From contig CANXME010002591.1 in the NCBI GenBank assembly GCA_948144175.1, positions 1,236,501 through 1,300,500 on the forward strand: a stretch of 64,000 nucleotides of DNA, in the 5' to 3' direction. Of this stretch, positions 3,425-41,400 are shown piece by piece. The notes under the pieces are model-generated. The model worked only from the letters and a program-made list of their open reading frames with translations. It was not told where the DNA came from and did not search any database. The translations under genes were made by a program, and so were the position numbers. Source of the stretch: Closterium sp. NIES-65. Its lineage: Eukaryota > Streptophyta > Zygnematophyceae > Desmidiales > Closteriaceae. The stretch's first letter is position 1. Every line of letters begins with the position of its first letter.

Positions 3425-6400
3425 TGCTGCTGGTGCTGTTGGGTCACGGTCCGCAGATTGGATGGGCAGGCAGCCAAAGGCCTCTGTGAGAGGCAGTAGC
3501 GCCGCTGCTACTCGGGGGAGCTGGTGGCGTGGTGGGGGAGGGGAGACGGGGTGAGCGGGCGATTTGGAAATGGAAGGCGGGTGACGGGATGGGAGGGGAG
3601 GGAAGCGAGGGAGTTGCGGGGGTGTAAGGGTGAAGGGAAGGGGAACTGGCATTTATAATGTCATGTGTTTGCTTATGGAAGGTGGTGTGGGGACATGAGG
3701 AGAGGGGGAGCATAGGAAAAAAGATGTGGGAAGTGTGGCAGGGGCCAAGAGGAGCAGAATTTTTTAGAGTCGACTCAAAACTAGAGTCGACTCAAAAGAA
3801 GATGGGGGAAGTGGCAGGGGCCAAGAGGAGCAGAAATGGCAGGGAAACCGAGACGGCAGGCATGGCATGGGATGGCATGGCAGGGAAACCCGCCTGGCCG
3901 TGCAGTCGGAGCACATGAGTAGCGGATCGCCCCAGCAGCCCTGCCAGCAGGCGATCCAGAGACGACATGGCAATGCCTGACGCTGCTGTTGCCACTGCTG
4001 CCGCCGCCGGTGCCGCCGGTGCTGCTGCTTCTCCCCCCCCGACTCCTGCTGAGGCTGGTGTAGTTGCGGAAGGCGCGTGGGCAGCAGGGGGAGGCGGGGA
4101 GGAGAGGCGAGGGGAGTCGGAGAAGAAAGGAGGCAGGGCGGCAGGTGTAGTAGAGGGGTAGACCTGCGACGCAGCTACCATGGCTGAGCGGGAGAGAGAG
4201 GAGAGGAGGTGCGTCACTAGGGATGCTGCTAGCTCCTGCGAGGGGAGGAGGGGAGGATGGGAGGTGCGGGGAAAATGAGTGGGGAGACAAAAAGAGGGGA
4301 AGTAGGAGAATGCTTCAGTGGAAAGAGAATCTTTGACCCTCTTTGACCCTCTTTGACCCCAGCTCAGCCTTCTGCTCTTCCTCAGCCCGCTATTCCTCCC
4401 TGAGCCCCGTTTCCCCCCATCGGCGCCCTCACCTCACCCTTTCTCCTTCCCTCACCGCTCACTCATCCCCCTCCTCCTCCTCTGCACCAGCGCACCTGCA
4501 GGTGCCAGCTGAGGCGCAGAGTGGCGCCGCAGAGCACAGACGCTGCAGCGGGCGCCCACGAGGACTCCGACGCTGCCAGGTGGAACGCCAGCAGCAGCTC
4601 CTCCTGACTGCCGGGGGTCGTGAGGGGGGAGAGGAGGGGAGACGGAAGAATATTGAGGTGCCTCAAAAAGCGCCCACAGGGACTCCGATGCTGCCAGGTG
4701 AAACGCCAGCAGCAGCTCCTCCTGACCGCCGGGGGTATTAGGGGAGAGAATGGGAGAGGGGGAGAGAGGAGGGGAGAGGAGGGGAGAGGAAGGGAGAGGT
4801 GGGGAGAGGAGGGTAGAGGAGGGGAGAGGAAGGGAGAGGAGGGGAGAGGACAGGAATGGTTAGGAGACGAGAGGAGAGTGCTTCACAGCAACCACTTTGT
4901 CGCACCAAGCGAGCTAGATCACAGCATACCAATAAGGCAGGAGTGTTTCAAGAGGATTCTAAATATAGAACTGAGACGTCTATGTGTTTCAAGAGAACTT
5001 TGAAAATACACACAGCTCGCCTATCTAGAGCCCGGCTGTGCCCTTCTAAGCGCTTGGTATCCGAGGCGCTGCAAGAGAGCCTACCTAGTGGCTGGGTGTG
5101 CCGAGAGGGAGGCAAAGAGCGGGAGCGAGAGAGGGCCATTGGCAGTGAAGTGAGACCACGCAGCCGATCCCCCCATGGGGGACTGGGCAGCAGCAGCCGA
5201 GGAGGCCAGGGGAGCAGAGGCAGCACCCCCAACGGCAGCGGCAGCAGATGAGGTGGAGGGCTGGGAGCAGAGGCGGAGGAGGGGGAGGCCTGAGGAGAGG
5301 AGCGGCAGGAGGGTGAAAGCGGTGGCGGAAGGGATGAGGCCGCGACGGTAGCATGCCTCCACTGTGAAATGCCAGATGGTGAGCTCTGTAATGGGTAGAG
5401 AAGGGCGGGAGGATGACAGGGTGGATGGTGTTGGGGGGAAGGGAGAAGAAGGGGGCTTGGTCTTTGCAGTGTCTCTGAAGCTGGGATGACGTCCTGGCGG
5501 CAGCATGCCTCCACTGTGTGAAATGCCAGATGGTGCGCTCCACAGGTGGGGGAAGGGGGAAGATGAGAGGGTGGGGGAGGGAGAGGGGTGGGAAGTGTGA
5601 CGAAGAGGAATAAGGAGTGGCCAGGAGGGAGAGCGGGGCGGGGAGGTGGGAAGTTGGGAGGGTGGGAAGATGGGAGGTAGGAACTTGGGATGTGGGACGG
5701 AAAGGACGTGAGAGAAAGGAGAAAGAGGGAGAGAGCAACGACGGTACAGGAGCGAGTGTATGAGCACATGTGCACACGCACATGCATGTGTGCAGGAGCG
5801 CATGCACGCAAGCAGCAACAGACCTTCAGCTGAGGCGCCGAGAGCAGAGGCAGTGGCATGGGGGACAGCAAGGGGCGAGCCAGCAAGGAAGACTGGCAGG
5901 TGCAGGTGCCGGAACACACGCACTGACCCCAGCGCCCCCACCAGCCCCTCCTGCACCGCTGCCTGTGCCTTATCCACCGCTGCCGCTGCCGCCGCTGCTG
6001 CCGCCGCTGCTGCCGCTGCTGCTGATGATGATGATGATGCAAGGGTGGCGGCGGTGCTGATGGCATGGGGATCGCTGCTTGCAGCCGCGGTTGCAAAAGG
6101 CAATCCCTCCTCCTGGTCCTCATCCTCTTCCCCTTCATCCCCTGCCTCCTCCCTCCCCTCCAGTTCCATCCCCTCGTAATCCAATGTCATCACATCCTCT
6201 TCCTCCTCCTCATCCTCCTCCTCCTCATCCTTCCCTCCACCCCTCCCATCCCCCCCTTCCCCCTCCGCCATCCCGTCCATCCCCTGCCACGACCGTTTCC
6301 TCTTCCCTTGTACCATTCCTCCCTTTCCTGCACCTCTTTTTCGACCACCTGCTCCCCCTAACTGCCCCACAGCCCTACCATCCCTCCCCTTTCCTCTCTT

Positions 6401-9400
6401 CCGCCTGGCTGCACCCATGCCGCCTCCTCCTCCTCCTTCCCCCATGCGCACCTTCTTCTCACACAGCTGCAGCAAGCTGGCAACGGCCATAGGGCCCAGG
6501 CACAGGCAGAGGGACAAGCGCCCATCCTCGTCTGATAAGTCGTAGGGGGTGGGCGGGGAGGGCGAAGCAGGAGAAAGGGGAGAGGTCGTCGCAGCAGCAG
6601 CAGCAGAACAAGGGTCTTGGGATGTGAGGGAGGGAGCAGATGGAGAGGAGGAGGAGGATGAAGGGCCGGCAGGGATGGAGCTTGCCTGGGGGGATGGGGA
6701 GGGAGGGAGGGCGGGAGGGAGGGAGGGCAGGAGAGAGGATGAGAGCGATGCAAAAGAGAAAAAAGAGGATGCGCGTAGGATGCCAATTTGAGCACATGGA
6801 AAGAGAGAGGCAAACGAAGGGCGACTAGCCAGAGAGAGGTAGCTACAGAGGAAGAGTAAGCGGGAAGGAGACGGCGAGAGTGGCGCAGGGCGTTACAACT
6901 GAATTGGTAATGCAACTGAATCATAAGACAATGTTAAAGCGAGGGCACACACGGAACAGGTGTGTGATGTGACGGGGGGAGGGCGTGTGGCAGACGGGCG
7001 GGCGGGCGGGCACGTAGGCAGGCAGGAAGGGGTGTTGTTACGGACAGAGGAGGGGGAGCGAGCGACGAGGCGGAAGAGGGAGAGGAAGAGGTGCAGCAGG
7101 CACTCGTGCCATGACGCCCCATGCACCTGCTTCACTGTCAGCAGCACCTCTGATGAACGTGGGGGAAAGGGGGAGAAGGGGAAAAGTGAGAGAGGGGAGT
7201 AAGGGGATGGGGGGGAATGACTGGAAAACAGGGGGTGGAAGCAAGAACGAGCAGTAGGAGAGGAACGGACGAGGATATGAGAAAACATCACTCTATTTTC
7301 CCCTCTCTCACTACTTGACAGATATCCTTCCTTCCAACATCCCTACCATATCCCTCATACATCCCTTCAGCCCTCCTGTCCTCCCCACTGCACCCCCGTA
7401 TCACATTCTCTCTCCACCTCACCCCGTTCCCACTCCCAACCACTCCCACTCCTTACCCCCCTCCCTTCTCTCCACCACCCACCAGCAATACTCTCGGGCA
7501 GAGCCCTAGAGCCGTCATCACTCCAGCAGCACCCCACCAGCAGAGGAGGCGCCAGCACACCCGCACCACTGGCCTCACCACCGCTGCTGCTTGCAGGGCT
7601 GCGGGCGGCTATGGTGGTGGGCGCGGCAGGGACTCTCTTGCTGGTGACGAAGGCCTCTAGAAGCAGATCCAGGGCCTGCCAGGGCGATGGGGATGGCAGT
7701 GCTGCACAGGGCGACGCTGGTAATGCCCGTGATGGCTGCTGCTGCTGCTGTGCACGTGCTGCTGCTGCTGCTGCTGCTGCTGCTGATGCAGTAGCTGCTG
7801 CTGGTGATTGGGAGGATGCTGCTGCTGCTGGTGGTGCTGATGGTAGTCGTTTTCGTGGTGCTGTTGCTGCGCTCATGGATTGCAAGAGGAGCGGCAGGAG
7901 GGAAGTAGAGGAGGACTGGAGGAGAGTGGAGCTGGGACGGGCACTTAAAGAGCTTCTTGCTCCGCCCCTTGCAGACACTGCCGCCACAGCCGCCGCTGCT
8001 GCAGCTGCTGCTGCTGCTGCTGCTCTTGTTGCTGCGGGTGATGCTGCTGCTGCGCTGACAACAGCTGAGCCTGCACCAGAAGCGCCCTCCCTTAACCCCC
8101 CTCCAAGGAGGCCCTGCCCCACACCAGCAGCAGTGCCACTCCCTGCCGCCTTGCTGCCCTCCATTCCACCACCTCTCCCTTCCCGCGCTTCCTTTCCCAG
8201 TGCTCTTCCCCGCCGCACCAGCGTTTGAACCTTGCATGCTCGTGCCAGCAGTAGCGAGGCAGAGGCGGATTCAGAAGCAGGGAAGAGGTGCAGTGTGAAG
8301 GGTGGGAGGGCGAAGTAGGAAGGGAGGGAAGGTGGAGGAGTGGCGGGTGGCGGGGAAAGGAGGGAGTGGTGGGGAATGGCAGGGGAAGAAGAGATGGTGG
8401 AAGCTAGACGGTTGGTGAGGGAGGTGAGGGAGAGGAAGCGGTTAAACATAAGAGGCCTGCAGTGGATGGGATGGGATGGGATGAGGAAGAGGAAGAGGAA
8501 CAACGCGTGGAATTTTTGAGACGTCCCAAGAAAGGAAGCCGTTGGGATGGGATGAGTTTTAATTGTGGGGAAGAGGAATGACAGGGGGAATGGGAGAGGC
8601 GAGAGGGGGGGAGCGGGAGATGGGGACGGGGCCGCGGGTGGAGTTTATTGGAGCATTTGGGGGTCATGAGCTGAGTATTTTGATATGGTAGGGCGGCTTG
8701 CGAATGAACCTTTGATGATTGAAACATGCGGAGGGGGAGGAGGAGCTGTGCTAGCATGGCTGTGCTGCACGGTCTATTGCTGCACGGTCTATTGCTGCAC
8801 GGTCTATTGCTGCATGGTCTATTGCTGTTCCTGGAGAAGGTGGGTTTCAAGTCCTGAGTGTAAGTTTTCTGGTTGAGCGTGGAAAAGTAGGTAGGCAGGG
8901 AGGGACTAGTGCCGTTGTGGAAGCGTCTGCATATGTGTCAGTGTCACGGTATGTCTCTCTGAAGGAGAGAGGGGCCTGAATCCCCCAACCTGCGTTTCCT
9001 TTGCAGACGAGATACAGGTACAGATAGATACCCGCCCGCACCGCAAACACGAACATAGCACGAGCAGGGATGCAGTGGGAGAGAGAGGAGGGGAGGGGAG
9101 GGGAGGGGAGGGGAGAAGAGGGGAGGGGAGAAGAGGGGAGGGGAGCAGGAAGAAAGAGTGGGTGCAAGGGGAGAGGCGTACATGTGAGAGGGCGCAACTT
9201 GCAGCAGGCAGATGCTCCACTGAGTCTCTTGCAGCAGGGCCGCCAGCACATGCAGTGACAGCAGCACGTTCTCTCTCACGGACCCCCACTGCGCCTCCCC
9301 CCACCTGCTCACATCCACCACTGCATTCTCCTCCCTCGCTCTGCCACCACCAGCAGCACCAACACCAGTGCCAGCAGCAGTAGCAGCCGCAGCAGCACCA

Positions 9401-11371
9401 GGCGGATTGATGGTGGTGGCGCCAGGCGCAGTAGAAACATGTCCGCCAGCTGCAGTTGCAGCAGCTGCAGTTGCAGCAGCAGCTGCTGCAGCAGCAGGAG
9501 CATCTGCAGGAGCAGCAGCAGCAGCAGCAGCAGCATCTGCAGGAGCATCTGCAGGAGCATCTGCAGGAGCGCAAGCAGCATCACCTACACCATCAACCGC
9601 CATAGCTGTCACACCATCCCCTCCACCATCACCAATGCCACCACCATCACCAATGCCACCACCACCACCCGCACCAGTCCCATGTAGTGCCAATCCCTGA
9701 CCAGCCCCACCTGCTCCCTCACTCCGCAACCCTTCCAATCCGTCCACCCTCTCACCGCCACCACCATCACCCTCTCCTGCTGCCGCCTTCCCTCCCTGCT
9801 GCTCCCCACCAGCTATGCTGCGCAGCTTGCGGCCAGACAGGTCGTCTAGCACAGCCCGTAGCAGCGAGCTCGCGAGCCAGAGCGCAAAGCGCCCTACTAG
9901 GTCGGATAAGCTGCCCCTGCCGCTGCCACTACCCCTGCCCCTGCTGCTGCTGTGGCGCTTGGTGAGTGAGTGCGGAGGAGGAGAGAGGGCGGAGGAGAGG
10001 TAGGAGTGGAATCTGGGTGTGTATTAGGGGGTAGTGGTGGGGGGAGGAGAAGAGTGGGAGTGAGTATGTGTTGACACGCTAGTGGAGTGGAGTGAGATGA
10101 GGTGGGGCATGAGCGATGAGAAGGAATGACAGTGACAGGAGTTGAGAAGGAAACGACATTAGGTTGAGTTGGAGGAGTGCGCGGGTGCTGTGGATAGAGA
10201 GGAGGAACGAGACGAAATGCAATGGGGATGGGGCTATCAGAGAGAGGTTTAAGAGGAGGAGGAGGAGGAGGAGAATCAGGAGGGGAGGAGCAGGCTTACA
10301 GGGGCAAGGGCGGCCATTGAGAGGGGGCCCAGAGGAGAGGAGGGGAGTCGGAGAGGAGCGAGAGGAAGCGATGGAAGGATGATGGGCGCCGCCAGCGATG
10401 CTGAATGGTGCTGTGCGGTGGGGTGGGGAGAAGGAGAAGCACAGATGGCACCCACACACAGGCGGTCACACCCACTCACGCATGCGCACACACACACACA
10501 CACAGACACACACACACACACACACGCACACACAAAACGCGTGCAGTCATGAGAGCCGAGTACACGACATTAGCACATGACAAACCGCGTGGCCAAAGCA
10601 AAGGAACTCGCTACGAGGAGCAGAATACGGCCCAGAGAGGAACGAACGAACGGCCCAGGAGCAGCAACCAACACTTGTGGAAGGACACATGTCAGCCAGC
10701 CACGTGAAATGGCACACGTGTGAGGGTGGGCAGTGGGCAGTGGGCAGTGGGCAGTGGGCAGTGGGCAGTGGGCAGTGGGCAGTGGGCAGTGGTCACTTCA
10801 CTGGTGTGGTGTACCTGCGAGCGAGGAGTGCGACGATGTGCAGCGGCACCACCAGATGGCACGCCATGCCATGCTCCACGTACTGCCATACCCGCGCCTC
10901 CTCCTCCTCCGCTCGCGACCTCTCTCTCTCCCTCTCCTCCTCCTCTTCCTCCTCTTCTCCCTCGTCGTTCCGCTTTTCTCCCCGTTTCCCATCTCTCCAC
11001 CTCTCCTCCGCTCCCCAACTCCTCCGCTGCACGGCTCGCCCTTCCTCCCCGCCATTTGCGCTTATCCGCTCTCTTTCCGTACCACTTCCGCCGACTCCGC
11101 CCGTTCCGCCGCCGTCCGCTCCCCTCGTTCCCCCCGCCGGGCCCGCGGAAGCTCGCGGGGCAGCGTTGCGCGCAGCGCTGTCTGCGCAGAGGCTCAGCGC
11201 TTCCGCCAGTGCTTCCGCTAGGTCGAGTGACGGCAGCGGGTGGCCCCGTGATTTGAGGGCCAGCGACACGTCAGCACCCCATGTGAGCGACGAGGCGCGA
11301 GACGCGGCGGCGCGTCTGGTGATGACCAGCAGAACGCGTGCGATAGAGGCCGGCTGGCTGGGACCGCCCAT
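1..11371 (-). CDS. MED33: MED33/REF4-like Mediator subunit (multi-exon, 3' end beyond window)
   Basis: Plant-specific Mediator tail subunit 33 links transcription factors to RNA polymerase II in the nucleus; in Arabidopsis (REF4/RFR1) it represses phenylpropanoid genes. Minus-strand exons match remembered MED33 landmarks in the right order. Exon 1 is 11371-10815 (ATG at 11371, then LKSRGHPLPSLDLAEAL and VWQYVEHGMACHLVVPLHIV). Next come a probable exon near 10400-10295 (FHRFLSLLSD), about 9955-9200 (LVGRFALWLASSLLRAVLDD), about 8300-7500, 7160-7050 (VKQVHGASWHECLLHLFLSL), 6545-5840 (DGRLSLCLCLGPMAVASLLQ), 5390-5090 (IWHFTVEACYRRGLIPSA), 4620-4495 (AAASVLCGATLRLSWHLQ), 4250-3900, 3520-3300 (LLPLTEAFGCLPIQ), 3140-2300 and about 1530-1 (TLPLPMALFLSFVSDLKL). 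The family is about 1300 aa; this copy is inflated by poly-Ala and Gly runs from CTG repeats. The first exon matching the family's N terminus fixes the start. Identity is fairly sure; exon edges after exon 1 are approximate. Confidence 0.82.
1700..1782. repeat. 18-bp minisatellite (CCCAGCCCAAAGCCCAAC)
   Basis: About three to four head-to-tail copies of an 18-bp unit lie between MED33 exonic segments. Both strands stay open through it, which explains the repetitive short reading frames there. It has no coding role I can support. Confidence 0.7.
2519..2592. repeat. CTG/CTC trinucleotide run in MED33 exon (poly-Ala)
   Basis: Uninterrupted CTG and CTC triplets, read on the minus strand as Ala/Gly homopolymers within the MED33 frame. 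Similar CTG runs lie at about 3378-3425 and 7738-7800. They lengthen the protein without touching the conserved blocks, so they are probably polymorphic. Confidence 0.75.
3717..3836. repeat. Tandem duplication with two GAGTCGACTC palindromes at the junction
   Basis: Left copy (about 3717-3760) and right copy (about 3793-3836) share GGCAGGGGCCAAGAGGAG and flanks. Between them lie two T/A-flanked 10-bp palindromes, GAGTCGACTC at 3767-3776 and 3784-3793. The locus lies in a MED33 intron or poorly conserved segment. It is one of several loci with the same architecture. Confidence 0.75.
4552..4747. repeat. Duplicated MED33 exon segment with GAGGTGCCTC palindrome at the junction
   Basis: The exon piece at 4552-4630 is repeated at 4670-4747 with few substitutions; both carry the minus-strand coding for QEELLLAFHLAASES. 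The junction at 4652-4669 is a T/A-flanked near-palindrome, GAGGTGCCTC (4655-4664). The 4552 copy continues into the conserved CGATLRLSWHLQ block and is probably the functional one; the other looks like a dead copy. Confidence 0.8.
4943..5010. repeat. Short tandem duplication around a GAGACGTCTA palindrome
   Basis: GTGTTTCAAGAG plus A/T-rich tail occurs at 4943-4968 and again at 4984-5010. The intervening bases contain GAGACGTCT (4973-4981), matching the palindrome family at the other duplication junctions. Confidence 0.6.
5345..5545. repeat. Tandem duplication of MED33 VEAC exon segment
   Basis: GCATGCCTCCACTGTG...AAATGCCAGATGGTG occurs at about 5352-5382 and again at about 5503-5535. On the minus strand they read IWHFTVEACYRRGLIPSA and a diverged HTVEACCRQDVIPAS. 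The lower-coordinate copy continues into the conserved downstream sequence, so the other is probably a non-functional duplicate. No clear palindrome is seen at this junction. Confidence 0.65.
8461..8562. repeat. GGGAT-rich duplication around a TTTTTGAGACGTCCCAA palindrome
   Basis: GGGATGGGATGAG-type sequence lies on both sides of a near-palindrome centred on GAGACGTCCC (8518-8527), with T's before and A-rich sequence after. The duplicated flanks are simple sequence, so this is a weaker member of the set. Confidence 0.5.
8760..8828. repeat. 15-bp minisatellite (TTGCTGCACGGTCTA)
   Basis: Four head-to-tail copies of a 15-bp unit in a MED33 intron or poorly conserved segment; one copy differs by a single base (CATGG for CACGG). 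Confidence 0.8.
10488..10526. repeat. (CA)n microsatellite
   Basis: An almost pure CA run with one AGAC interruption and a terminal CGCACACA, in the non-coding part of the MED33 5' region between exon 1 and the next exon. Confidence 0.9.
10727..10792. repeat. 7-bp minisatellite (GGGCAGT)
   Basis: About nine perfect GGGCAGT copies inside MED33 intron 1, just downstream of the exon 1 splice donor at 10814 on the minus strand. Confidence 0.9.
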
Positions 11372-17692: not shown

Positions 17693-17730
17693 GGTGCCTC
17701 AAGCACTCTGCAGCTGCTGCTCCACGCGGG

Positions 17731-20335: not shown

Positions 20336-20340
20336 GAGTG

Positions 20341-23646: not shown

Positions 23647-23696
23647 CAGACGCTGACAGGTCACGCCGCTCGCCCGACCCAACTGGCCCTCGCCGA

Positions 23697-24762: not shown

Positions 24763-27700
24763 TCAAGAAGAGAGCAAGTGTGGCAAGACAGGTACAAGAC
24801 CCAGCTGGGTACAAAAGCGCTGATGGTCGCAAGGCGCAAGTGCCTTGGTGAACACATCAGCAGTGTTGGCCTCAGAGGCCACGTAAGCAAGTCGCAACTG
24901 ACCACGCTGCTGCAGCTCACGAGCAAGGAAGTAGCGGAGAGCAATGTGCTTCGTTCTGTGCTCCAAGCGCTGCTCTCGACACAAGGCCAACATGGCCTTG
25001 TTGTCTACGTACAGCACTGGAGGAGAACGAGGCAGCTCTCCAAGGTCAGTCAGCAGGTAGGTGAGCCAGCGAAGCTCCTGTGCAGCCATGGCCCCGGCGT
25101 AGATCTCAGCCTCACAACTGGAGCCGAGAACCGAAGACGAGCGAGTAGACCGCCACGAGACAGAGCCGGAACCAAGGCTGAAGGTGTAACCCTGTGACGA
25201 CCGCTGCGTAGCCTGGTCGTCAGCCCAAGAAGCGTCTGCGTGCCCAGTAAGGACCACTGGACTCCGCCCTCCAAGCACTAGCCCCATGCCCGACGTACTG
25301 CACAGGTAGCGCAATACCCTCTTCGCTGCAGCCATGTGCTCTGGTCGGTGTCTCCCTGGAGCAACATAGCGTGCAAGGATGCTCAGAGGGTATGCAAGGT
25401 CAGGTCGTGTGCAGGTCATCAGGTACATGAGGCAGCCAACAAGCTCTGCATACGGACCACTCGACTCTACGGACTCATCCGAAGGCAGAGCTGAGAGTGA
25501 GTGGCGAGTAGGCAGAGGAGTGGCCTGAGGCGAGGAGTACGTGAAGCCGAAGCGCTGAAGGACCTGCTGCACCATGTGTGACTGAGTCAGGGTAATGGTG
25601 CGGCGTGCTCTGTCCCGAGTGATCTGCAAGCCAAGGTAGCTGCGCAGTTCACCCAGGTCTGTGCACGTGTGTCTCTTCAGCAGCTCGGACTTCACGTAGG
25701 CGAGTCCAGCAGTGTCCGCTGTGGCAAAGACCAAGTCGTCGACGTACACGAGGATGTAGAACGGCGGCAGGGAAGTGTCGGTGCGAAGAAACAGCGACGG
25801 GTCAGCAGTAGAAGGAGCAAACCCAAGAGCCGCAAGCGTAGTCCTCAGTGTGTCGTGCCACTCACGCGGTGCCTGGCGGAGACCGTAGACTGGCTGTCGG
25901 AGGCTCCACTGGGTGCCAGGAGGGAAAGTCCCAGTGAAGCCAGGCGGACGGCGCAGCCAGATCTCCTCGTGCAGGCTACCCTGCAGGAACGCAGTGCTGA
26001 AGTCGAGAGAGTGAAGCTCGTAGTCGCGCTGAGCGGCAATGTGCAGCAGCACCCGAAGAGTGGTCATCTTCGGGGTGGGAGAGAAGGTCTGAAAGTAGTC
26101 AACTCCCTGCCGCTGACTGAAGCCACGAGCCACGTAACGCGCCTTGAAGACAGGCGGTGAGCCCGGCGGCCGCTTCACCCTGAAGATCCACATGCCACTG
26201 ACGATGTTCGCCCCAGGAGGGGGAACCGCGTCAACGTAGGTGCCTGTGGACTTCCAGGAAGCCATCTCTGCATCCATAGCTGCCTGCCACTGAGAGGAGT
26301 AGGGACCCTCTACGGCCTCCGCGTAAGAACGCGGAGTCGGGATGTCTAGTGCATCCGGGTCTCCCTCAGGGGCTAGCAGTACAGACGCGAGGCGAGGTGA
26401 AGCAGCGGCTAGACACTGGAACTCCTCCTGCCTGTCCTCTAGGACGTCCGTGCCAAGGGCACACTCACCCCCGACGGACGGAGGACAGGCGGACTCAGAC
26501 TCAGCGACAAGACGAGCAGCGTAGTCTAGACGACAGCGCGCAGCAAAGTCGACAAGCTCAGTGACAAGGGCAGACGCAGCAGACGACTCGAAGGAAGGGT
26601 CAGTGACAGCAGTAGCAAGGAGACGCGTGACAGTAGGACTGGCAGCACGAAGAGAGTCCGACTCCGGGTCGGCAAGAGCAGGAAGAGAGGAAGCAGGAGG
26701 AGAAGGCAAAGGGGCACGCAGAGGAGCAGTGGACGGACGCAGTGACATCCGGTGCGTGCCAGGGACAGGAGGAGGACGCTGACGCGACCCGCGACCACTA
26801 GCGCGCTCAGTACGAACAGGGGACGCAGGACGAGACGCAGGCTCACGACGCTCAGTAAGGCCTCCAGTCGGACCAGCGTAGGGAGAAGGAGCAGGCAAAG
26901 GGGAGGCAGGCTCGAGCTGTGGCTGTGACCGGACAGGCTGCGGACCCTCTAAGGGAGGAGGAGGAGCAAGACCAAGAACCTGCTCCAGGAGCGGAACGAA
27001 GTACGGTCGAGACCGCGCGGCGACGCCAGAAACAGCAGGAACAGAACCAGCAGCTCCGGCCGGAGCACCCACTCCAGCAGCACCTCCAGCAGAACCACCA
27101 GAAGCTCCAGAACCTCCAGCAGCAGCAACAGGAGCACCGTCAGTCGGACCACCAACCGCAGGCTCAGCGCCAACGTCCTCAGCAGGACCAGCTCCAGGAG
27201 AACCCTCAGACCCAGCAGCTCCAGCACCCACAGGACGAGCACCGCCAGGTCGCGTGGCAGCAGCGCCCTCCGCAGCCGAAGAACCACCAGAACCAGCGGC
27301 ACGCCTCCAGCGCCGGGCAAACCACTCACGCAGCTCCTGTGGAGAGAGCGGCTCCCGGCGAGACAAAGCACCCCCAGGCACAGCACCTCCAGGCTCGGCA
27401 CCTCCAGGCTCAGCACCCCCAGGCTCAGCACCCCCAGGCTCAGTAGCCCCAGACACAGCACCCCCAGGCACAGCACCCCCAGGCTCAGCACCCCCAGGCA
27501 CAGCACCCCCAGGCTCAGCACCCCCAGGCTCAGCACCCCCAGACTCCGCACCCCTAGGCTCAGCACCCCCAGGCTCAGCACCCCTAGACTCCGCACCCCC
27601 AGGCTCAGCTCCCGCAGCAGCACCAGAGTCACCAGTGACCTCGACAGGCTCGACCGCGTCTACCTGAGACACACCTGAAGGGGCAGGACCCTGAGGGGGG

Positions 27701-30700
27701 AGGGGGACTACTGGGGGGGGACCTGGTACCAAGAAGAGCGGGGGTGGGGGGAGGGACGGAGTGCGGTAGGGGAAGAGGCGGTAGTAGGGTACCGACTCGT
27801 CGAACGTGACGTCCTGGGAGGACAGAACACGTCGAGAGGTGGGGTGGTAAAACTGCCACCCAGGGGCGTCGGGGGGGAACCCGAGGAAGACGCAGGGAGA
27901 AGCACGAGGGGACAGCTTGTCCGCAGACAGGTCGCGAACAAACGCCCGAGATCCCCAGACCCGGAACGCCGACGCATCGCCAACCTTCCCCGTCCACAAC
28001 AGAGCTGGGGAGGTCTCCGGTCGAGAGACCCTGGGGTGGAGGTTGATCTGGTGCGCAGCGTACCTGACCGCAAACGGCCACAGAAAATGGGGAGCAGCCG
28101 CATGCATCATGGACGTACGAGCGACGTCCATGACCATGCCAATGCGGCGCTCAGCGATCCCATTCTGCTGTGGTGAGTCCGGAAGCGTGAAGGTCTGACG
28201 GATGCCTCGCACACGACAGTAGGCACTCAGGAGGGCAGAGGAGAACTCTCCGCCTCTGTCCGAGTGCAGACGCAAGACAGGGAAGTCAGAGCCAAAGCTT
28301 CTCCGAAGCTGAAGACGAGCTGCGCGGATCCAGTCGATCAACACCTGAGTGACCTCACCCTTGCTGCGCAAGGGGAAGACTGTGGTGTAACGCGAGTAGT
28401 CGTCAACCACCAGCAGGAAGTAGCGCTCCTGACCCTGTCCACGGACGCGGGCTGGGCCCCACACGTCCATGTGAAGCGTCTGCAACGGGGCCTCTGTCGG
28501 AGGAAACTGGGAGGAGTGAGGGGCAGCACGCTGGCGCCCCTCGACACAGGGGACACAGGCAGGGCCAGGGCCCGGAGGAAGGGGAGGGAGGGACCGGGGA
28601 AGACCAGACACAAGGACCCGCGAGGCCATGCCTCTGAGCCGAAGCAGAGAGGGGTGGCCAAGGCGGTGGTGCCAGAGGAGGGTCTCGTGAGACAGACGAC
28701 GACACGAACAAGGGGCAGACTCAGGACCAGACCTGGACGCTGCAGCAAACACCTGACCAGACGAAGGGGCCCTACCAGACGCAGTACCTGGAGGAGAAGC
28801 AGTGGTCAGTGTGTACAGGCTCGACCCCGGCCGACGTGTAAACGTAGCCAGGTGGCGACCTGTATCCGCCTCCGTGCAGTGGGTCACCCGCTGACGAGCA
28901 GGGGTGAACTGGTGGACACCTGCATCCTGGAGGTCAGCACCACTCACCAAGTTCGTCGAGAACAAGGGGAGGTAGAGACCAGTCAGGGTGCCAGAGGGGG
29001 CCGCCGGACACGGGAGGACAGTGGAGAAGCGAGACAGGACAGGCCCCCCAGAGGGGTCCGCCAGGGACACCGCAACAGGCCGACTCAGCGGCGTGAGAGT
29101 GGTGCGGTCCCTAAAGAAGGAGCGAGACGCTCCAGAGTCAAGGGTGAAGGTGTGAGAGGCCGAAGCCGACACAGTACCTGAGAGGGCGGACTCACCAGTA
29201 CCTGAAAGCACAGACGCACTGGCACCCAGAGCAGCAGCCTCACTAGTACCTGACGCGGCAGTACCAATGCCCGGGTCGGGCGGGAAACACCGGTAACAGT
29301 CATCCTCATCACTACCAGTCACAGCATACATAGCAGAGAGAATAGCATCAAAATCAAGATCATAAATAGCTACACCAGCCCTAGACAGCTCTCCCCAGCG
29401 GGGGATCTCAGCGGCCTCCGGAAACTGCTGACGCCAGGCGTCGGTCAGGCGGCCAAAGCAGCGACGGGCTGTGTGGGCGCCTCCACACCTCTCCCCTGCA
29501 CGGTCACCAGTGCGAAGAACGTAGGGGCAGGGACCAAGCGCACCACCGCGCTGACGCTGCAAGTACCACTCACGGAGCTGCTGAGGGCCGGGGACGGTGC
29601 GAGAGCGCTGCTGCTGCTGCGGCTGCTGCTGCGGCTGCTGCTGCTGCTGCTGCTGGCGCTGACCACCCCCAGAGCTGCTCCGCTGGGACGAGCCACTCCG
29701 ACCCCCTCCTCCACCGCCACCCCCGCCTCCACCGCCACCCCCGTCGCCACCGCCACCTCCCCCACCAGGACCGTCGCTCCCATCGCTCCCACCGCCTCCT
29801 CCGCTACCACCTCCGCCGCCACCTCCGCCTCCACCGCCGCCACTACTACCTCCACTCCCGCCACCACCCCCCCCGCCACCCCCACTCCCCCCTCCACCCC
29901 CACCGCCTCCTCCACCGCCCCCTCTGGCTCCACCCGCTCCCTTGCCCCCCTTGCCCTTGCCAGTGCGGCGTCTGCCACTGGGGGCAGACGCCGCGCCGAC
30001 CGACTCAAAACCAACGAGGTCGGCCGCAGCAGCAGAGGCGACAGAGGGCAGCAGGGGGGAGGGACCACACCCCTCAAAGATGGGGGTGCGAGGGTCACCC
30101 CGAGAGGCCCCTACAGCGACAATACTCTTCTCAGCCGCTAGCAGGGACTCCTCAAGGAGGTCGACAGTGAGAGTGGTGGGACAGACAGAGAGAAACTGGT
30201 CCCTAACGACACGAAGGGACTCAGGGAGACGGGTGACGAGAAAGTAGAGAGTGATGTACATGGGAGGAGGGTTCGCAGCGCGGAACTCAGCAGGAAGGGC
30301 AGCGCGGTAGCGGGTGTCACTAGCGCGGAGGTGGGTAACGAGGTCAGCGACAGTGGGAAAGGAAGCGAGGTCAGGGAAGAGAAACGGTAGCATGAGGCGG
30401 CTAAGGGTAGCGGAGGAAGGGGAGGAGTAGCGCGCAACTACAGCGTCGTACAAGGCCTGAGCGGTCTTGCACTGACTAAAGTGGGCACGCTCAGAGGAAG
30501 GGAGGTGGCGACGCACAGCAAGACGTGCAGCAGCATCGCGGGTCGCCCACTTGGAGCGAACGGCAGAGTCAGCATCAGCAGGCGGGGCAGGGACAGCGCC
30601 AGAGACAAAGTCAAAGAGAGAGACCTCATCTACCGCATCACACAGTAAGTACAGCTGCAGGTCCTCGATCCAGACGGCAAAGTCAATGGCCCTCCCCTCA

Positions 30701-30732
30701 GCGTCAAAAGTGAGAACATTGGGGGTGGCCAT
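24763..30732 (-). CDS. Copia Gag-Pol polyprotein
   Basis: Single open frame, 1989 aa from the ATG at 30732 (MATPNVLTFDAEGRAIDF). It copies element RNA into DNA and integrates it. Domains by residue: UBN2/Gag-like 1-250; a Gly/Gln-rich disordered linker about 265-380; a Cys/His cluster (CPYVLRTGDRAGERCGGAH) instead of a classic CCHC knuckle; protease DSGA about 532; GAG-pre-integrase with H and CVPC about 680-720; integrase core HMDVWGP (755), HSDRGGE (823), NGIAERR (857); a degenerate GGAEPGGAEPGG repeat about 1040-1125; reverse transcriptase with YVDDLVF about 1665; RNase H with ADASWADD about 1837. The copia order (integrase before RT) is clear and no stop occurs. Confidence 0.96.
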   Translation of the reverse strand: MATPNVLTFDAEGRAIDFAVWIEDLQLYLLCDAVDEVSLFDFVSGAVPAPPADADSAVRSKWATRDAAARLAVRRHLPSSERAHFSQCKTAQALYDAVVARYSSPSSATLSRLMLPFLFPDLASFPTVADLVTHLRASDTRYRAALPAEFRAANPPPMYITLYFLVTRLPESLRVVRDQFLSVCPTTLTVDLLEESLLAAEKSIVAVGASRGDPRTPIFEGCGPSPLLPSVASAAAADLVGFESVGAASAPSGRRRTGKGKGGKGAGGARGGGGGGGGGGGGSGGGGGGGGGSGGSSGGGGGGGGGGGGSGGGGGSDGSDGPGGGGGGGDGGGGGGGGGGGGGGRSGSSQRSSSGGGQRQQQQQQQPQQQPQQQQRSRTVPGPQQLREWYLQRQRGGALGPCPYVLRTGDRAGERCGGAHTARRCFGRLTDAWRQQFPEAAEIPRWGELSRAGVAIYDLDFDAILSAMYAVTGSDEDDCYRCFPPDPGIGTAASGTSEAAALGASASVLSGTGESALSGTVSASASHTFTLDSGASRSFFRDRTTLTPLSRPVAVSLADPSGGPVLSRFSTVLPCPAAPSGTLTGLYLPLFSTNLVSGADLQDAGVHQFTPARQRVTHCTEADTGRHLATFTRRPGSSLYTLTTASPPGTASGRAPSSGQVFAAASRSGPESAPCSCRRLSHETLLWHHRLGHPSLLRLRGMASRVLVSGLPRSLPPLPPGPGPACVPCVEGRQRAAPHSSQFPPTEAPLQTLHMDVWGPARVRGQGQERYFLLVVDDYSRYTTVFPLRSKGEVTQVLIDWIRAARLQLRRSFGSDFPVLRLHSDRGGEFSSALLSAYCRVRGIRQTFTLPDSPQQNGIAERRIGMVMDVARTSMMHAAAPHFLWPFAVRYAAHQINLHPRVSRPETSPALLWTGKVGDASAFRVWGSRAFVRDLSADKLSPRASPCVFLGFPPDAPGWQFYHPTSRRVLSSQDVTFDESVPYYRLFPYRTPSLPPPPLFLVPGPPPVVPLPPQGPAPSGVSQVDAVEPVEVTGDSGAAAGAEPGGAESRGAEPGGAEPRGAESGGAEPGGAEPGGAVPGGAEPGGAVPGGAVSGATEPGGAEPGGAEPGGAEPGGAVPGGALSRREPLSPQELREWFARRWRRAAGSGGSSAAEGAAATRPGGARPVGAGAAGSEGSPGAGPAEDVGAEPAVGGPTDGAPVAAAGGSGASGGSAGGAAGVGAPAGAAGSVPAVSGVAARSRPYFVPLLEQVLGLAPPPPLEGPQPVRSQPQLEPASPLPAPSPYAGPTGGLTERREPASRPASPVRTERASGRGSRQRPPPVPGTHRMSLRPSTAPLRAPLPSPPASSLPALADPESDSLRAASPTVTRLLATAVTDPSFESSAASALVTELVDFAARCRLDYAARLVAESESACPPSVGGECALGTDVLEDRQEEFQCLAAASPRLASVLLAPEGDPDALDIPTPRSYAEAVEGPYSSQWQAAMDAEMASWKSTGTYVDAVPPPGANIVSGMWIFRVKRPPGSPPVFKARYVARGFSQRQGVDYFQTFSPTPKMTTLRVLLHIAAQRDYELHSLDFSTAFLQGSLHEEIWLRRPPGFTGTFPPGTQWSLRQPVYGLRQAPREWHDTLRTTLAALGFAPSTADPSLFLRTDTSLPPFYILVYVDDLVFATADTAGLAYVKSELLKRHTCTDLGELRSYLGLQITRDRARRTITLTQSHMVQQVLQRFGFTYSSPQATPLPTRHSLSALPSDESVESSGPYAELVGCLMYLMTCTRPDLAYPLSILARYVAPGRHRPEHMAAAKRVLRYLCSTSGMGLVLGGRSPVVLTGHADASWADDQATQRSSQGYTFSLGSGSVSWRSTRSSSVLGSSCEAEIYAGAMAAQELRWLTYLLTDLGELPRSPPVLYVDNKAMLALCREQRLEHRTKHIALRYFLARELQQRGQLRLAYVASEANTADVFTKALAPCDHQRFCTQLGLVPVLPHLLSS
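27360..27612. repeat. 15/30-bp coding repeat (GGAEPGGAEP) in copia Pol
   Basis: Tandem CCCCCAGGCTCAGCA units read as Gly-Gly-Ala-Glu-Pro repeats between integrase and RT. They keep frame, so length changes are tolerated; probably a flexible linker. Confidence 0.85.
29690..29940. repeat. Gly-rich coding simple sequence in copia Gag
   Basis: CC(A/G/T)CC-type triplets, read on the minus strand as long Gly runs with Ser, following the Gag domain; likely disordered. Confidence 0.8.
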
Positions 30733-30753
30733 GGCAGCAGCTGAAAGTCTCAC

Positions 30754-34760: not shown

Positions 34761-34796
34761 CGGAGAGGGCTTCTTGAGGGGGGGGGGGGGGGGTAG

Positions 34797-35099: not shown

Positions 35100-35187
35100 G
35101 TTCTCCACCACAAATTATTAGCAAATGGTTGAATTGTAGCCTTGGCGCGTGATTACGAAGAGTGTACTTCAAGTATTCTGGATTCAT
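35100..35187. repeat. 88-bp flank duplication X, right copy
   Basis: Counterpart of 21903-21990, directly after the 3' LTR. The level of mismatch suggests the duplication is about as old as the gypsy insertion. Confidence 0.85.
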
Positions 35188-35416
35188 TCCACGAGAGCGT
35201 ATTTCAGTCGGCACAACCTGACTGACTGACCACGTAAAGCAAAACCCCAGGTTTCCCCATTTGGATCAGGGCAAACGTGTGGTTTTGTAGCAGTTTTCGG
35301 CTTTCCCGGCGCTACGAGGGAAGCCATAGCCTGTCTTGAGCTCTCCGTTGAGTTCTATTGACGGAAGGAGATCCCTCAATCTCGGTCTTGCTGCTCGTTC
35401 GAACGTTACGCCCGCC

Positions 35417-38400
35417 ATGGGGAAATCAGAGAACCCGCGGGTGTTTTTCGACATATCAATGAGCGGGAACAAGGCTCAACGTGTTGTGATGGAGGTGCGG
35501 TGAACGTTTTCAAATTTCGCTCCTCGTATTGCTCGCCGCTTGTTGCAAATCTCCTTGCTGTCATCCTTTTATCGGGTCCAGATTTCTGGGTCGATTTGAA
35601 AGTCACCTCATTTTTTTCCTGGCTCTCGATCAGTGATCCTTTCCCATGCATTTTCCCATTCGCGGCCATCGCGGTAACTCTCTCTGAGCGCTTGACCGAC
35701 ATTGGGCTCCATTAACCCTCCGCTACCTCGCAGCTATTCGCGGATGTGGTTCCGCGTACAGCGGAGAACTTCAGAGCGCTTTGCACGGGTACGCCCGTTT
35801 CTACTTTTCGAAGAGCTGGTTTGATGCTCGCTAAAGCAGTTCGATTGCCGCATTGCACGGATACCAGCTGTCACGTTCGTGAAACTGCGCACTTTTTTCC
35901 CTCCCCACCCTCCCTCCCCACTACTTCTTCCCCTCCTTTCCTTTTTTTTTTTCGTATTTATCAAACTCCGCCATGGCGAATCGTTATTATGACGTCCGTT
36001 ATTGCATTTAAATGATTATCACTATTATTCGCATGAACGCGCGTGGCAGGGGAGATGGGAGAGGGCAAGTTCACGCGCAAACCGCTCCATTTCAAGGGCA
36101 CCGTCTTCCACCGCGTCATACCGGGCTTCATGGCGCAGGTGCATTTTCTCTCTTTTCCCCCCTCCTTTCTAGGCGTTTCATATCTTAATCTTGCGCCTCA
36201 TCCTTTTGAGGCGCCTAAACAAAATGTCGCTCGTGCATTCGCTCTCCCTCCCTCCCTCCGTATACATTCTCATTCCCGCCCCCTTCTCCCAACCTGTCTA
36301 CCGTATCATCCCGTTCTGTGTCCTGTTCTCGGTTCTCGCGCGTGCCACCTCCCTTGCTTCGCCCGGACTTTTCGACAGCTAATCCCTCCTCTCCCCCCTC
36401 CTCCATTTCCCCTCTCGCATTCCCCCCCGGGCCTCTCTGTGCCTACGCCGTCGGGGCTTCTCAGGGTGGCGATTTCAGCAACAAGGACGGTACGTCCTTC
36501 CCGTTCTCCTTTCCACCCCTGCTCATGATTCTTATCCCCCTCTCCGCCTTGGCGTTAATTCGCCGCTGCCCGAGCACTTCACTGTTCCCTGTTCGGATCG
36601 CCGCACCACTCCACTGTTCACTGATCACGTGCTCATTGAGTTTTGGGGCCGCCATTGTTTCCTTTCCTGTGACTGTGACCCTTCAATGTTTTCTCTATCG
36701 TTCCTTCCGCCATTGCTTTTCCCCGGTCCCCTCCCCAAAACCCCTCCACTCTCTTACACATGCGCGCACGCACACTCGCCACTGTGAAAACAACCGGCGG
36801 TGGTCCAGGCACGGGAGGAGAGAGCATTTATGGCGGCAAGTTCGCAGGTCAGACCGACCGACCACATGCCTCCCTCATTGCATCCCTGGCTTTGTTACGC
36901 CCCTTTGAATATGCCCAGCTTCTTGCTGTAATCCCGCGCACCATATACCCGCGCACCATATACCCGCGCACCGTGCCTTGCCCTGTGCCGTTGTCTCAGC
37001 GAACGAGCTCTATCCATGTCACGTTCTCATGCGTCTACTGCGTGCATTCCATTCCTTCAGTCTCACTCGTTCTCTGCCTCAGCCCCCCCACCCCACCCCG
37101 TTCCCCCCCCAATTCTCTCCCATCCGCTCTCCTACCCTCCTCAACCTTTCCTCCACTCCTCCTGCTCCCCTCTCCAAGCGCATTCCATTCCACCCAAACC
37201 CCCGTCCCCCACTCCCCCATCCTGCCCGTGCGTGCTGTGTCCCCGTTCTCCCACCCACCCACCTCACGCGAACGGCAGACGAGAGCTTCAAGCTGCCGCA
37301 CGCGGCAGCGGGGACGCTATCCATGGCTAACGCGGGTCCCAACACGAACGGCAGCCAGTTCTTCCTCACCTTCAAAGCCACTCCGCACCTCGACGGGTGC
37401 GTTGTAGACCGGGGGAAGGGGGAGCGAGGGGGGGAGAGAGAAGGAAAGTGAGAGAGTGAGGGGGAGAGGCTGGGAAATTGAGAGTAGTGAGAGACGGACG
37501 GGGAGGAGTTGGGGAGCGGGGAGGAGAGCTGTGGCACGTCTGAAACTGAATCTGTTTAGCCTGACCGTTTCCCAGCCCACCAGCACCATCCCGCTGTTCT
37601 TGATTTGCGTTCTTGCCCCTCTTCCCCCGTCGCTCCTCTTCCCTCTTTCTCCAACGTTTCCCTCCTCCGCCCCTTCCCCCCCTCACCCACCGCTAGCGTC
37701 CCCCGTTTTCCAAGCCCCTCCCTCCCCCGTCCCACCCCCACCCCACCATCTTTCCCCCCTCCCTCGCGTGCGCAGCGAGCACGTGGTGTTCGGGCGAGTG
37801 GTGGAGGGAATGGAGGTGGTGGAAATCCCGCCCACACGGCTTTTGAGGCGCCTCAAAAGTGGTGGAGGGAATGGACGTGGTGGAAAGCCAGCCCACACGG
37901 TTGAGGAGTGCCTTGCTCCTCCACTTCCTCACCGCTCATCCCCCTCGCTCCACTTCCCTCCCCTTTCCTTTTCCTTCCCCAATACCCCCTCCTCTCCCCC
38001 AATCCCCCCCTTGGCCCCTCCATCTCTCCCACTTTCCCTCTTCCCGCTCTCCTCTCCACCTTCCCGCCCTTTGCCTCTGTAGCAAGCACGTGGTGTTTGG
38101 GCGAGTGGTGGAGGGAATGGAGGTGGTGCGCGCCATGGAGAGCCAGCCCACGGGGGACAGGGACCGCCCCGTGTTCCCCATCAAGATCACCAAGTGCGGC
38201 CAGCTGCCTGCTGCTGCTGTTGCTGCTAGCGGCGGGAAGAGCGGGAAGAAGGCGCGAGGAGAGGAGAAGGAGAAGGGCGAGGAGGAGGACGAGGAGGAGG
38301 AAGAGGGTGGGAAGGGAGGGAAGGGCGGGAAGAGCGGGAAAGGGAAGGAGAAAGAGAAGGAGAAGAGGAAGGAGGAGAAAGGGAAGAAGCGGCGACGGGG

Positions 38401-41400
38401 AGAGAGTTCTGAGGAAGAGAGTGAGGAGGAGGAAGAGGACGAGGAGGACGAGGAGGAGGAAGAGGAGGAGAAGGGGCGTAGCAAGGGAAAGAAGAAGAAG
38501 GGCGGTGGGAAGGGAGGTGGCAGTAAGGGAAAGGGCAAGAAGGCAAAGAAGGGAAAGCAGGGGATGAAGAAGAAGCGTGGGAAGGACGGTGGGAAGCGTG
38601 GGAGTAAGAGGAGGAGAAAGGATGAGTGGAGCAGTGACGAGAGCAGTGAAAGTGACTCTGACGAGTCGTCTTCTTCTGATTCTGATGCTAGTTCGGACTC
38701 CCGAAGCAGCTCGTCAGGCTCGGAAGGCTCATCGGATAGCCGAAGCTCAGAGTCAGGCTCGGAGTCTGACAGCAGCAGCTCTGATGGGAGTGAGAGGAAG
38801 AGGAAAAAGGGAAAGGGGAAGAGGGTTGGGAAGGGGAAGGCTCGTGGAAAGGGGTCTGGTAAGAAGGAAGATGAAAGGAAGGGGAAGGGATCTGTGAAGG
38901 GCAAGGGGAACGACGGAGGGGAGAAAATTAAGGGCAAAGGGAAGCATGGGAGTGGGAGGAAGGATGACGGTTACTGGGAGGTGAATGAGGACGAGGAAGG
39001 GAAGGGGAAGGGGAAGGATAAGGAGAAGGGGGAGGGGAAGGGGAGGGAGAAGGAAAAGGAGAAGGGGAAGAAGGCGAGGAAGGACGAGGAGATGGGAGAT
39101 GGCAAAGAGGAGGAACTGAAGGTGCAGGGGTCGAAGGGTAAACGGCAAGAGGAGGATGAGAGTGAGGATGAGCAGAGAAAGGGGAAGGGGCAAGGTCGGG
39201 GAAAGGAGGAGGAGGGGAAGAAGGGAACGAAGCAGGTCCAGGAGAAGGGCAGAGGCAAAGGGGAGAAGGAAGGGCGAGGAGGAAAGGGCAAGGGAGGGAG
39301 CACGAGCAAGGGGAAGAAGAAGAGGTATGAGAGGTGGGAATGGAAGGTGAATACCTCTTGAGGCGCTGTAATAGAAGTGGTAGGTTAGGTGGGATGGGAA
39401 GGTGAAGGAATGCGGTGGTGAATGCTTTGACGCACACTCTGTATTTGTATAGTATGGCATTGCCAGGTAGGCTGTCTGTCAGGTTTTGTGTCAGGTGGGT
39501 CGTGGTCAGGAATGGGTGCTCTTTCTCTTGGCGTTTGATGAAGCCTGGCTGTTGCCAGGAGGGTCGCACTGGCAATCAGAGAGTCGCACGCACGCACGCG
39601 CGCGCGCCGACTGCTCTTGGTGTGCTGCAAGCAGGGTAGCCGAACTAGGCCCACAACGTGGTCGTTCGTCGGTCGCTCTACTGGCAGTTAGAGTCACACG
39701 CACTGTGCACGCTGTCTGGTTCTTGGTTTGCATATGTGCGTCTGAGTAGCAGCAAGCCGGCTTCTTGGCTAGTCTGAGGTGCGCTCTCAAGTGCTGTGGT
39801 TAGATCTGTCTGAGGGAAAGTAAGCTGGGCTTGTGGGGTGGTGGTGTGTGTGTGTCTGTGGCGCTTTAGAGGCAATGCTCAGAGTGCTCTCTCAGGTGCT
39901 GATACCGCGGAGTTGTGCCTCTCTGTGTGGTGTTGTGTGTTGCTGTGTGGTGCTGTGTTGTGCTGTGTTGTGCTGTGTGTTGCTGTGTGGTGCTGTGTGG
40001 TGCTGTGTGGTGCTGTGTGGTGCTGTGTGATGCTGTGTGATGCTGTGTGTTGCTGTGTGGTGCTGTGTGTTGCTGTGTGGTGCTGTGTGGTGCTGTGTGG
40101 TGTTGTGTGGTGCTGTGTGGTGCTGTGTGTTGCTGTGTGGTGCTGTGTGGTGCTGTGTGTTGCTGTGTGGTGCTGTGTGTTGCTGTGTGGTGCTGTGTGG
40201 TTCTGTGTGTTGCCGTATGGTGCTGTGTGGTGCTGTGTGGCGCTGTGTGTTGCTGTGTTGCAGTAAGTACTCGGACGAGGAGGAGTCAGACAGTGGTGCA
40301 TCCAGATCATCTAGCGAGAGCAGCAGCAGCAGCAGCAGCAGTGAGGACGAGGAGGAAGAGAGGCCGTCTCGCAAGGGCAAGGGTGAGTCAAAAGGCAGCA
40401 AAAGAAGTGGGGGTAGGGTCGGATAAGAGATTATGGTTGTTTGAGACGTCATGAAGCACCGGATTGTGCAGGATTTAGGGTGTGCGGATGGGGAGGGGAG
40501 GGGGAGGGGAAGGGAGGGAGAGGGGAAGGGGAAGAAAGGGGGGGAGGGGGAGGGGAAGAAAGGGGGGGAGGGGGAGGGGAAGAAAGGGGGGGAGGGGGAG
40601 GGGAAGAAAGGGGGGGAGAGGGAGGGGAAGAAAGGGGGGGAGGGGTAGGGGAAGCAAGGGGGGGAGAGGGAGGGGAAGAAAGGGGGGGAGGGGGATGGGG
40701 ATGGGGATGGGGATGGGGATGGGGATGGGAGGGGAAGAGTGGGGGTAAGCATGGGAATGAAGAGGTTGCCAGTTGCACGGTTTGCACTGTTTGCAGTGTT
40801 TGCAGTGTTTGCACTGTGAACTACCTGCTCTGCTGCTAGTAGTTGCTTCCTCATCTCTAGCTCCCTGGCTTTAATTGTGCGCTTCTGATTGCTTTCTTGC
40901 CATACATTGTGTTGCGGACTGTGGTGTACTGTGTGATGATTTGCTGTGCGGTGCTGTGTGGTGCGTTTCTGTGCTGTGCTGGTATTTGGTTCCACTGGAC
41001 TGGCTGCTGGTGTGCAGGGAAGGGCCACGGGGTCAAAAAGGTTGAGCAGGAGTCGGGAAAGCGAGACGGGAAGGAGAAGGGTGACAAGGGAAAGAGCAGT
41101 CAGAAGAATCGAGCAGAGAGGAAGCAGAGCAGTGGCGGGCGCAAACCCCAGGCACAAGAGATGGAGGCAGAGCGTGAGACAGAGCGTGAGGAGGAAGGTG
41201 GGAAAAGGAAGGCCAGAAAGCTCTCAGGAAAGGTTGATTCGGACGCAAGGGAAGATGGAGTCGGTGATCGGGGGGATGAGGGAAGGGCAGAGGCGAGGCG
41301 AGAGGAGGCGGGTAGCGATTACGATAGCGATAGGCCAAGAGGGAGAGCTGGGAGAGAGGATAAGGACGCTGCTGGTGAGAAGAAGGCAAGGAGGAAGGGG

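Follow-up and report, generated by a model that had tools for sequence, protein, structure and literature searches.

We analysed a window of 64,000 nucleotides from the genome of the alga Closterium sp. NIES-65 (contig CANXME010002591.1, forward strand, positions 1,236,501 to 1,300,500; C2293:1236501-1300500 in our genome-wide counts). Positions in the window are numbered from its first nucleotide. The stretch contains a cyclophilin gene, confirmed by a match to Pfam family PF00160 (E = 4.6e-51), and a gene called MED33 in an earlier, sequence-only reading of the same DNA; three pieces of the latter gave no Pfam match and the name is unconfirmed. A glycosyltransferase reading frame of the window is 100% identical to a protein assigned to Closterium sp. 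NIES-64. Both genes hold short palindromes with a four-base core between TTTTGAG and CTCAAAA, several of them bracketed by two direct copies of the same target DNA. Such palindromes between target copies point to a break-repair or insertion process that matches no mobile element class known to us.

The palindromes are present at the positions given by the sequence-only reading, and flank duplications are clear by eye at three places. The first holds two TCGA-type palindromes in tandem (TTTAGAGTCGACTCAAAA followed by ACTAGAGTCGACTCAAAA, 3763–3797; Tandem Repeats Finder period 17 bp) between target copies at 3721–3759 and 3799–3835 (39 aligned columns with one mismatch and a two-base gap, score 30.5). 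At the second, a decayed GCGC-type palindrome with two mismatches (TATTGAGGTGCCTCAAAA, 4651–4668) separates copies at 4552–4645 and 4670–4760 (94 columns, score 59). Here the left copy includes, on the minus strand, what appear to be a 3' splice site and the beginning of an exon of the putative MED33 gene, and the second copy of this splice site has lost its AG (CGG, not CAG); these and all other splice junctions were identified by eye in the translations. The third is a perfect 20-bp GCGC-type palindrome (CTTTTGAGGCGCCTCAAAAG, 37840–37859) directly between copies at 37799–37839 and 37860–37900 (41 columns, three mismatches, score 33.5, gaps 0 and 0).

Other sites are less distinct. Abutting but low-scoring duplications surround the decayed GCGC-type palindrome TCTTGAGGCGCTGTAATA (39356–39373; copies at 39319–39351 and 39374–39406, 33 columns, score 18.0), where the left copy runs across the apparent 5' splice site that follows exon 7 of the cyclophilin gene, and the decayed ACGT-type palindrome ACTGAGACGTCT (4970–4981), whose decayed 25-bp copies at 4943–4967 and 4984–5008 (25 columns) have a score of 12.5, within the null range. 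The duplication around the ACGT-type palindrome TTTTGAGACGTCCCAAGA (8514–8531, two mismatches) is weak, with a 14-bp exact core shared by 8472–8511 and 8543–8589 and gaps of 26 and 13. The duplication claimed for the decayed ACGT-type palindrome GTTTGAGACGTCATGAAG at 40439–40456 was not convincing (score 9.5, gaps 75 and 41). To these sites we added a pair of decayed palindromes at 36166 (TTTCTAGGCGTTTCATAT, five mismatches) and 36204 (TTTTGAGGCGCCTAAACA, two mismatches). They occupy a spacer (36166–36221) between a left copy at 36130–36165, which crosses what appears to be the 5' splice site following cyclophilin exon 3 (in the exon numbering used here), and a decayed right copy at 36224–36259 (36 columns, score 13.5). 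By alignment, the end of intron 6 and the start of exon 7 also belong to an older, larger duplication of about 220 bp (37616–37835 and 37932–38151). It includes a pseudo-exon, and its spacer contains TTGAGGAGTGCCTTG, possibly a decayed palindrome.

In the window, TTTTGAGNCGNCTCAAAA with up to two mismatches was found at five sites compared with 0.01 per shuffle, and 200 half-site-permuted palindromes gave a mean of 0.005 matches. For the flanks, the window is a poor test by score alone, because tandem arrays inflate the null distribution obtained from random positions (median 8.5, 90th percentile 19, 95th percentile 33.5). Only the 4651 site lies clearly above this null and the 37840 and 3763/3780 sites are near its 95th percentile; the remaining sites score inside it, and their case is abutment. 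Nine of 126 near-palindromes in the window had abutting duplications; three of these are family members with T/A arms, and the other six lie in tandem arrays. The strong test is therefore genome-wide.

The sequence-only reading understated the family by speaking of two unlinked genes. In the assembly of 874,075,685 bases (2,400 contigs), TTTTGAGNCGNCTCAAAA has 24,964 exact copies compared with 0 for the reversed pattern, far from being no commoner than base composition predicts. The more general TTTTGAGNNNNCTCAAAA, which allows any four-base core, has 30,327 (control 4). The common cores TCGA, ACGT, GCGC and AATT are all self-complementary. We sampled 20 stretches of 10 kb (L148-L167), each chosen around listed palindrome matches, so that rates from this sample are not genome rates. 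It held 46, 26, 19 and 23 members at 0, 1, 2 and 3 mismatches, whereas 30 permuted palindromes gave means of 0.07 and 0.4 at two and three mismatches in the same 200 kb and none closer. Among the perfect palindromes in these 200 kb that are 14 bp or longer, 60 of 73 are members of the family (TCGA 26, ACGT 18, GCGC 11, AATT 5). The outer core bases N and N' were complementary at all 44 scored exact sites, a non-random sample (TCGA 22, ACGT 13, GCGC 9, CCGG 0), but in only 30 of 128 chance matches to the pattern in prokaryote and viral DNA, as expected for one in four. The sequence-only reading had noted that this base pair varies; the AATT core, the longer arms (the TCGA type reaches 32 bp in all) and the arrays had been missed. 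A chance origin is ruled out by the shuffles, the permuted palindromes, the reversed-pattern control and the prokaryote and viral chance matches.

For the flank duplications we used ten solitary-looking loci from a sparse genome-wide list that required GATC eight bases downstream; 30 bases of each were already visible at selection. Two of the ten are paralogs of each other, which leaves nine independent loci. The automatic test required a flank score of at least 14 with gaps of at most 40. Most loci did have duplicated flanks: seven of the nine passed, or eight when the abutting duplication seen by eye at L171 is counted; three family members are nested at L175, and L176 is an array. None of the 128 prokaryote and viral chance matches passed the same test. 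From the 122 members in the 20-stretch sample we kept 56 solitary ones, dropping rows in arrays and near locus ends, and in the 28 of these where it was measured the duplication was 16–117 bp long (median 60.5; the search reached up to 140 bp). In a tighter version of the test, which allowed gaps of no more than 25, 29 of 48 family palindromes passed compared with one of 18 unrelated palindromes in the same DNA, and this single case lies inside an array. Ten further palindromes first filed as unrelated were shortened family members, four of which passed. The duplicate copies diverge by 0–24% and are therefore not simple assembly joins. Published genomes of this Closterium species complex are PacBio or PromethION long-read assemblies from haploid-phase cells (PMC10407611).

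The centre of the insert is constant, and its outer ends vary, cut independently on the left and right. Going outward from the centre, the left side of young TCGA-type inserts continues through GAC to AGGTGAC (or AGTTGAC), and the right side continues to the mirror image (GTCACCT). An insert in L155 ends with AGGTGAC at its left and with G at its right, one in L154 has AC and GTC, and L167:2257-2288 is a complete 32-bp palindrome. AATT-type arms include GAGTGAC (L166:4819) and GGTTGAT (L153:7095), and several ACGT-type inserts have other arms of non-local origin. At L162:2586-2637 a 52-bp palindrome has its left arm within the left target copy and its right arm is the inverse; this looks like a snap-back, which would imply that the added 3' end was able to prime synthesis. 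Half-sites are almost strictly convergent: in 264 kb, 53 of 54 convergent pairs within 12 bases were exactly four bases apart, and a single divergent pair was found.

The outer junctions show an excess of microhomology. We scored 11 TCGA-type sites with a good duplication (22 junctions) and set aside five junctions with an arm unlike the consensus. At 12 of the 17 informative junctions the target matched the element in register by one or more bases, compared with 5.0 expected (p = 0.0002, 5,000 shuffles), and at five of them by two or more.

At three sites that we read, two to seven head-to-tail copies of the 17-mer AGGTGACTTTTGAGTCG lie on one side and are followed by one inverted copy. At L178 (C1643) a partial unit (TTTTGAGTCG) and six full units precede one inverted unit, which is degenerate; the 280-bp stretch shows a 23-bp direct copy of the flank at its edges. 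L179 (C975) has a partial unit, five full units and one inverted unit, and the flank copies on either side, roughly 42 and 46 bp long, differ by a four-base gap; at L167:9018 two units meet one inverted copy, again with direct flank copies visible. The half-site AGGTGACTTTTGAGTCGA without a following C occurs at 171 places genome-wide, and some of the roughly 100 listed are 17 bp apart (C975, C1316, C1643, C1051) and form tandem runs. The listed AGGTGACTTTTGAGTCG runs are short, and the two that could be placed within contigs are internal; no TTTAGGG doublet was found in 264 kb. Judged by these short runs, the 17-mer would seem not to be the telomere repeat.

The constant centre, variable outer ends, microhomology, occasional repeat addition, convergence and self-complementary tips together fit a templated extension of two ends followed by joining of the tips. 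We tentatively propose that the inserts form when both 3' ends of a staggered break receive the same templated add-on, are joined tip to tip and are filled in; we give this account nearly, but not quite, an even chance. The reaction would start with a break in which the cuts in the two strands lie tens of bases from each other, so that complementary 3' overhangs result. Each 3' end would then be extended by an identical add-on (AGGTGACTTTTGAGTCG for the TCGA type), in some cases more than once. The enzyme would presumably be a reverse transcriptase resembling telomerase, with a small RNA as its template. For the TCGA type this RNA would contain CGACUCAAAAGUCACCU. Synthesis would start at varying points, since the target end may align anywhere on the template, and would end at a fixed one. 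In the next step the identical tips would pair via their self-complementary last four bases (TCGA and the others) and join head to head, as in telomere fusion. Fill-in of the single-stranded target overhangs would yield the direct duplication. Of the explanations first offered from the window, the best fit is break repair with addition of a templated palindrome, given the constant centre, variable ends, microhomology, one-sided 17-mers and duplications of 16–117 bp. By the same process, we infer, the 220-bp duplication at 37616–38151 was made.

Several points weigh against this account. We found no template RNA, no enzyme and no empty site. No clean empty site occurred within the 20-stretch sample, near-identical paralogs of two sites match over their full length and presumably carry the insert too (their sequence was not read), and the genome matches listed for the cyclophilin region included no long paralog. 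In the 20-stretch sample, chosen as it was around listed matches, 28 of the 56 solitary sites failed the automatic test and 253 of 2,000 random positions passed it. The random positions score high because of tandem arrays; at some of the failing members a duplication is visible by eye, and at several sites the aligner picked an older nested duplication and skipped the abutting one. L174 has no flank duplication. Long arms that are neither local nor like the TCGA-type consensus occur at L157:2291, L158:2827 and L166:2615, and several templates would therefore be needed. The consensus used to score the junctions was partly derived from the scored sites, and microhomology is also expected of ordinary end joining. 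The 17-mer runs read number only three and could be due to slippage. Finally, N and N' do not pair in 33 of 100 listed rows, yet these rows come from only four of 52 loci: C1691 (26 rows, one large array), C1766 (5), C1649 and C2165, with flanks resembling two paralogous pairs. We read the non-pairing cores as mutated copies that were multiplied in arrays.

Alternatively, the inserts might have been captured ready-made: palindromic or hairpin double-stranded fragments would be ligated into breaks with long 3' overhangs, which would then be filled in. Donors could stem from cruciforms, from by-products of replication or from hairpin RNA after reverse transcription, and existing copies could supply further fragments. 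We regard such a capture as a real but rather doubtful possibility. It would explain that both outer ends look independently trimmed, and the differing arms, including the three non-local ones listed above, are as expected for pieces of longer palindromes; the microhomology suits end joining as well. Fragment capture thus accounts for most of the same observations, except that on its own it leaves the one-sided 17-mer runs unexplained. In addition, one conserved core would have to be supplied tens of thousands of times with varying arms. No longer donor was seen; the longest perfect family palindrome in 264 kb measures 52 bp.

Miniature inverted-repeat transposable elements (MITEs) and other terminal-inverted-repeat transposons carry inverted repeats between direct target copies, form subfamilies and make a target duplication of fixed length (2–11 bp). 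A true transposon family cut down to its terminal inverted repeats, as an extreme MITE or as excision scars or junctions left by a transposase with a long stagger, would share this general look, having conserved inverted repeats, subfamilies and direct target copies. We consider it improbable. Unlike such elements, the Closterium inserts have variable ends, no interior and duplications that range from 16 to 117 bp. Half-site spacings other than four bases are almost absent in 264 kb, and of the 42 half-sites there that are not part of an exact palindrome, 39 appear on visual inspection to be tandem units or decayed palindromes. A rare parent element could be hidden among the 171 AGGTGACTTTTGAGTCGA half-sites without a following C, of which we read two. 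The sequence-only reading had suggested an excision scar of a terminal-inverted-repeat transposon, a view that the near-uniform four-base spacing in 264 kb hardly supports, and no longer element with these ends was seen there. Its other suggestion, a tiny mobile palindrome, agrees with the tens of thousands of copies and the usual target duplication, but not with outer ends that lack the fixed position of transposon ends.

Ordinary repeats or artefacts, such as chance palindromes in low-complexity introns, satellite arrays or linker and assembly junctions, are a very improbable source: many copies do sit in tandem arrays (26 of 100 listed rows belong to the C1691 array) and repeats inflate the flank-score null of the window, but the reversed-pattern control is 0, only one of 18 unrelated perfect palindromes in the same DNA has an abutting duplication, that one in an array, and the copies have diverged in a species complex whose published genomes are long-read assemblies (PMC10407611).

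A non-long-terminal-repeat retrotransposon or short interspersed nuclear element was also rejected. It would need a constant 3' end (often poly-A) and 5' truncation; here the centre is constant and both outer ends vary.

Known repair processes share some of these properties. The natural patch-mediated tandem duplications of rice, from the work of Vaughn and Bennetzen (2014), are reportedly ascribed to nearby nicks on opposite strands. They resemble the Closterium sites as insertions in the form of tandem duplications in a plant but are not known to carry a conserved palindrome. In mammalian cells, fill-in of complementary 3' overhangs by CST and Pol alpha-primase yields small tandem duplications (PMC8355091). 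There the tandem duplication has about the length of the overhang, which may be compared with the flank copies of 16–117 bp measured here; the available text describes no recurrent inserted sequence at the junction (PMC8355091). At breaks in rodent and primate genomes, telomerase inserts telomeric DNA with microhomology, giving interstitial telomeric sequences (ITSs, or TERC-ITSs), as set out by Nergadze et al. 2007 (PMC2246262). According to the same work, some TERC-ITS loci combine retrotranscribed and complementary parts, at least one base of microhomology occurs at 77% of mouse loci compared with less than 25% expected, and duplications accompany only 6 of 130 rodent and 4 of 25 primate loci. 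The Closterium inserts resemble these ITSs in having short, seemingly templated repeats at breaks and target/insert microhomology above chance. In contrast to ITSs, which consist of the telomere repeat and are rarely accompanied by duplications, the Closterium 17-mer differs from canonical telomere repeats, and duplications are usual. The Closterium inserts also form palindromes, commonly with one of four core types, and number in the tens of thousands. In the open-licence PubMed Central (PMC) literature, we found no fitting description of palindromic elements with such target duplications (titles and abstract starts) and, among 5.39 million open papers, no match to any of six motif strings of the family.

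An extension of the proposed end addition and tip joining, which we think rather unlikely as a whole, is that Closterium has a telomerase-like, RNA-templated end-adding system apart from its telomeres, with several template RNAs, which caps the 3' ends of internal breaks with tags that have self-complementary tips. If so, staggered breaks would be mended by miniature telomere-style fusions, which would have written tens of thousands of tags and lengthened introns.

Some duplications span apparent splice junctions, namely the 5' sites of cyclophilin exons 3 and 7 and the 3' site in the putative MED33 gene; at L154:6299 a perfect 60-bp duplication crosses an apparent 5' splice site. Near genes, inserts might survive when the duplication carries a splice junction, with one copy remaining functional and the other decaying in the intron. 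We read exon-edge insertions as surviving because one copy keeps the exon intact, and claim no preference for exon edges. At most events, a recurrent process of this kind would leave a long target duplication together with a tag that can be recognised, and one genome would hold tens of thousands of such scars. The history of staggered breaks, largely invisible otherwise, would then become readable, and intron growth would have a natural explanation in duplicated splice junctions of which one copy decays. It might also reveal that a reverse transcriptase acts away from telomeres in the closest algal relatives of land plants.

Beside the palindrome of L154, exon fragments are repeated several times (L154:5950-7250). 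We take these fragments to resemble a cyclic-nucleotide-gated channel. The left 250 bp of this region are a repeated module that is also found on C117, C1829 and C1976.

Once formed, units of target plus palindrome grow into arrays; periods of 37 and 53 were found on C6 and of 42 on C10. The non-pairing-core member TTTTGAGCCGTCTCAAAA forms 46-bp-period arrays at C1691:545617-547302 and C1766:269967-270180, with 26 and 5 copies among those listed. Two apparently paralogous arrays consist of a 77-bp unit plus palindrome, with three copies at C1223:213357-213540 and nine at C2093:103707-104352 among those listed, an apparent case of recent array expansion or contraction. A separate repeated hairpin lies at L166:5475-5556, where a 44-bp palindrome (CCTGTTCGGTTCGCCTCGAACGTGTTCGAGGCGAACCGAACAGG) is followed by a T run; dozens of copies were among the genome-wide matches listed.

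The window also contains two larger elements. The first, at 45615–48718, has a tyrosine-recombinase (Phage_integrase) frame together with a reverse transcriptase/RNase H frame, and we assume from this domain content that it is DIRS-like. The second, at 24763–30753, is an uninterrupted frame of 1,996 amino acids, presumably a Copia-type polyprotein. One relative, a 47% identical fragment (L132), was found in a viral-contig collection.

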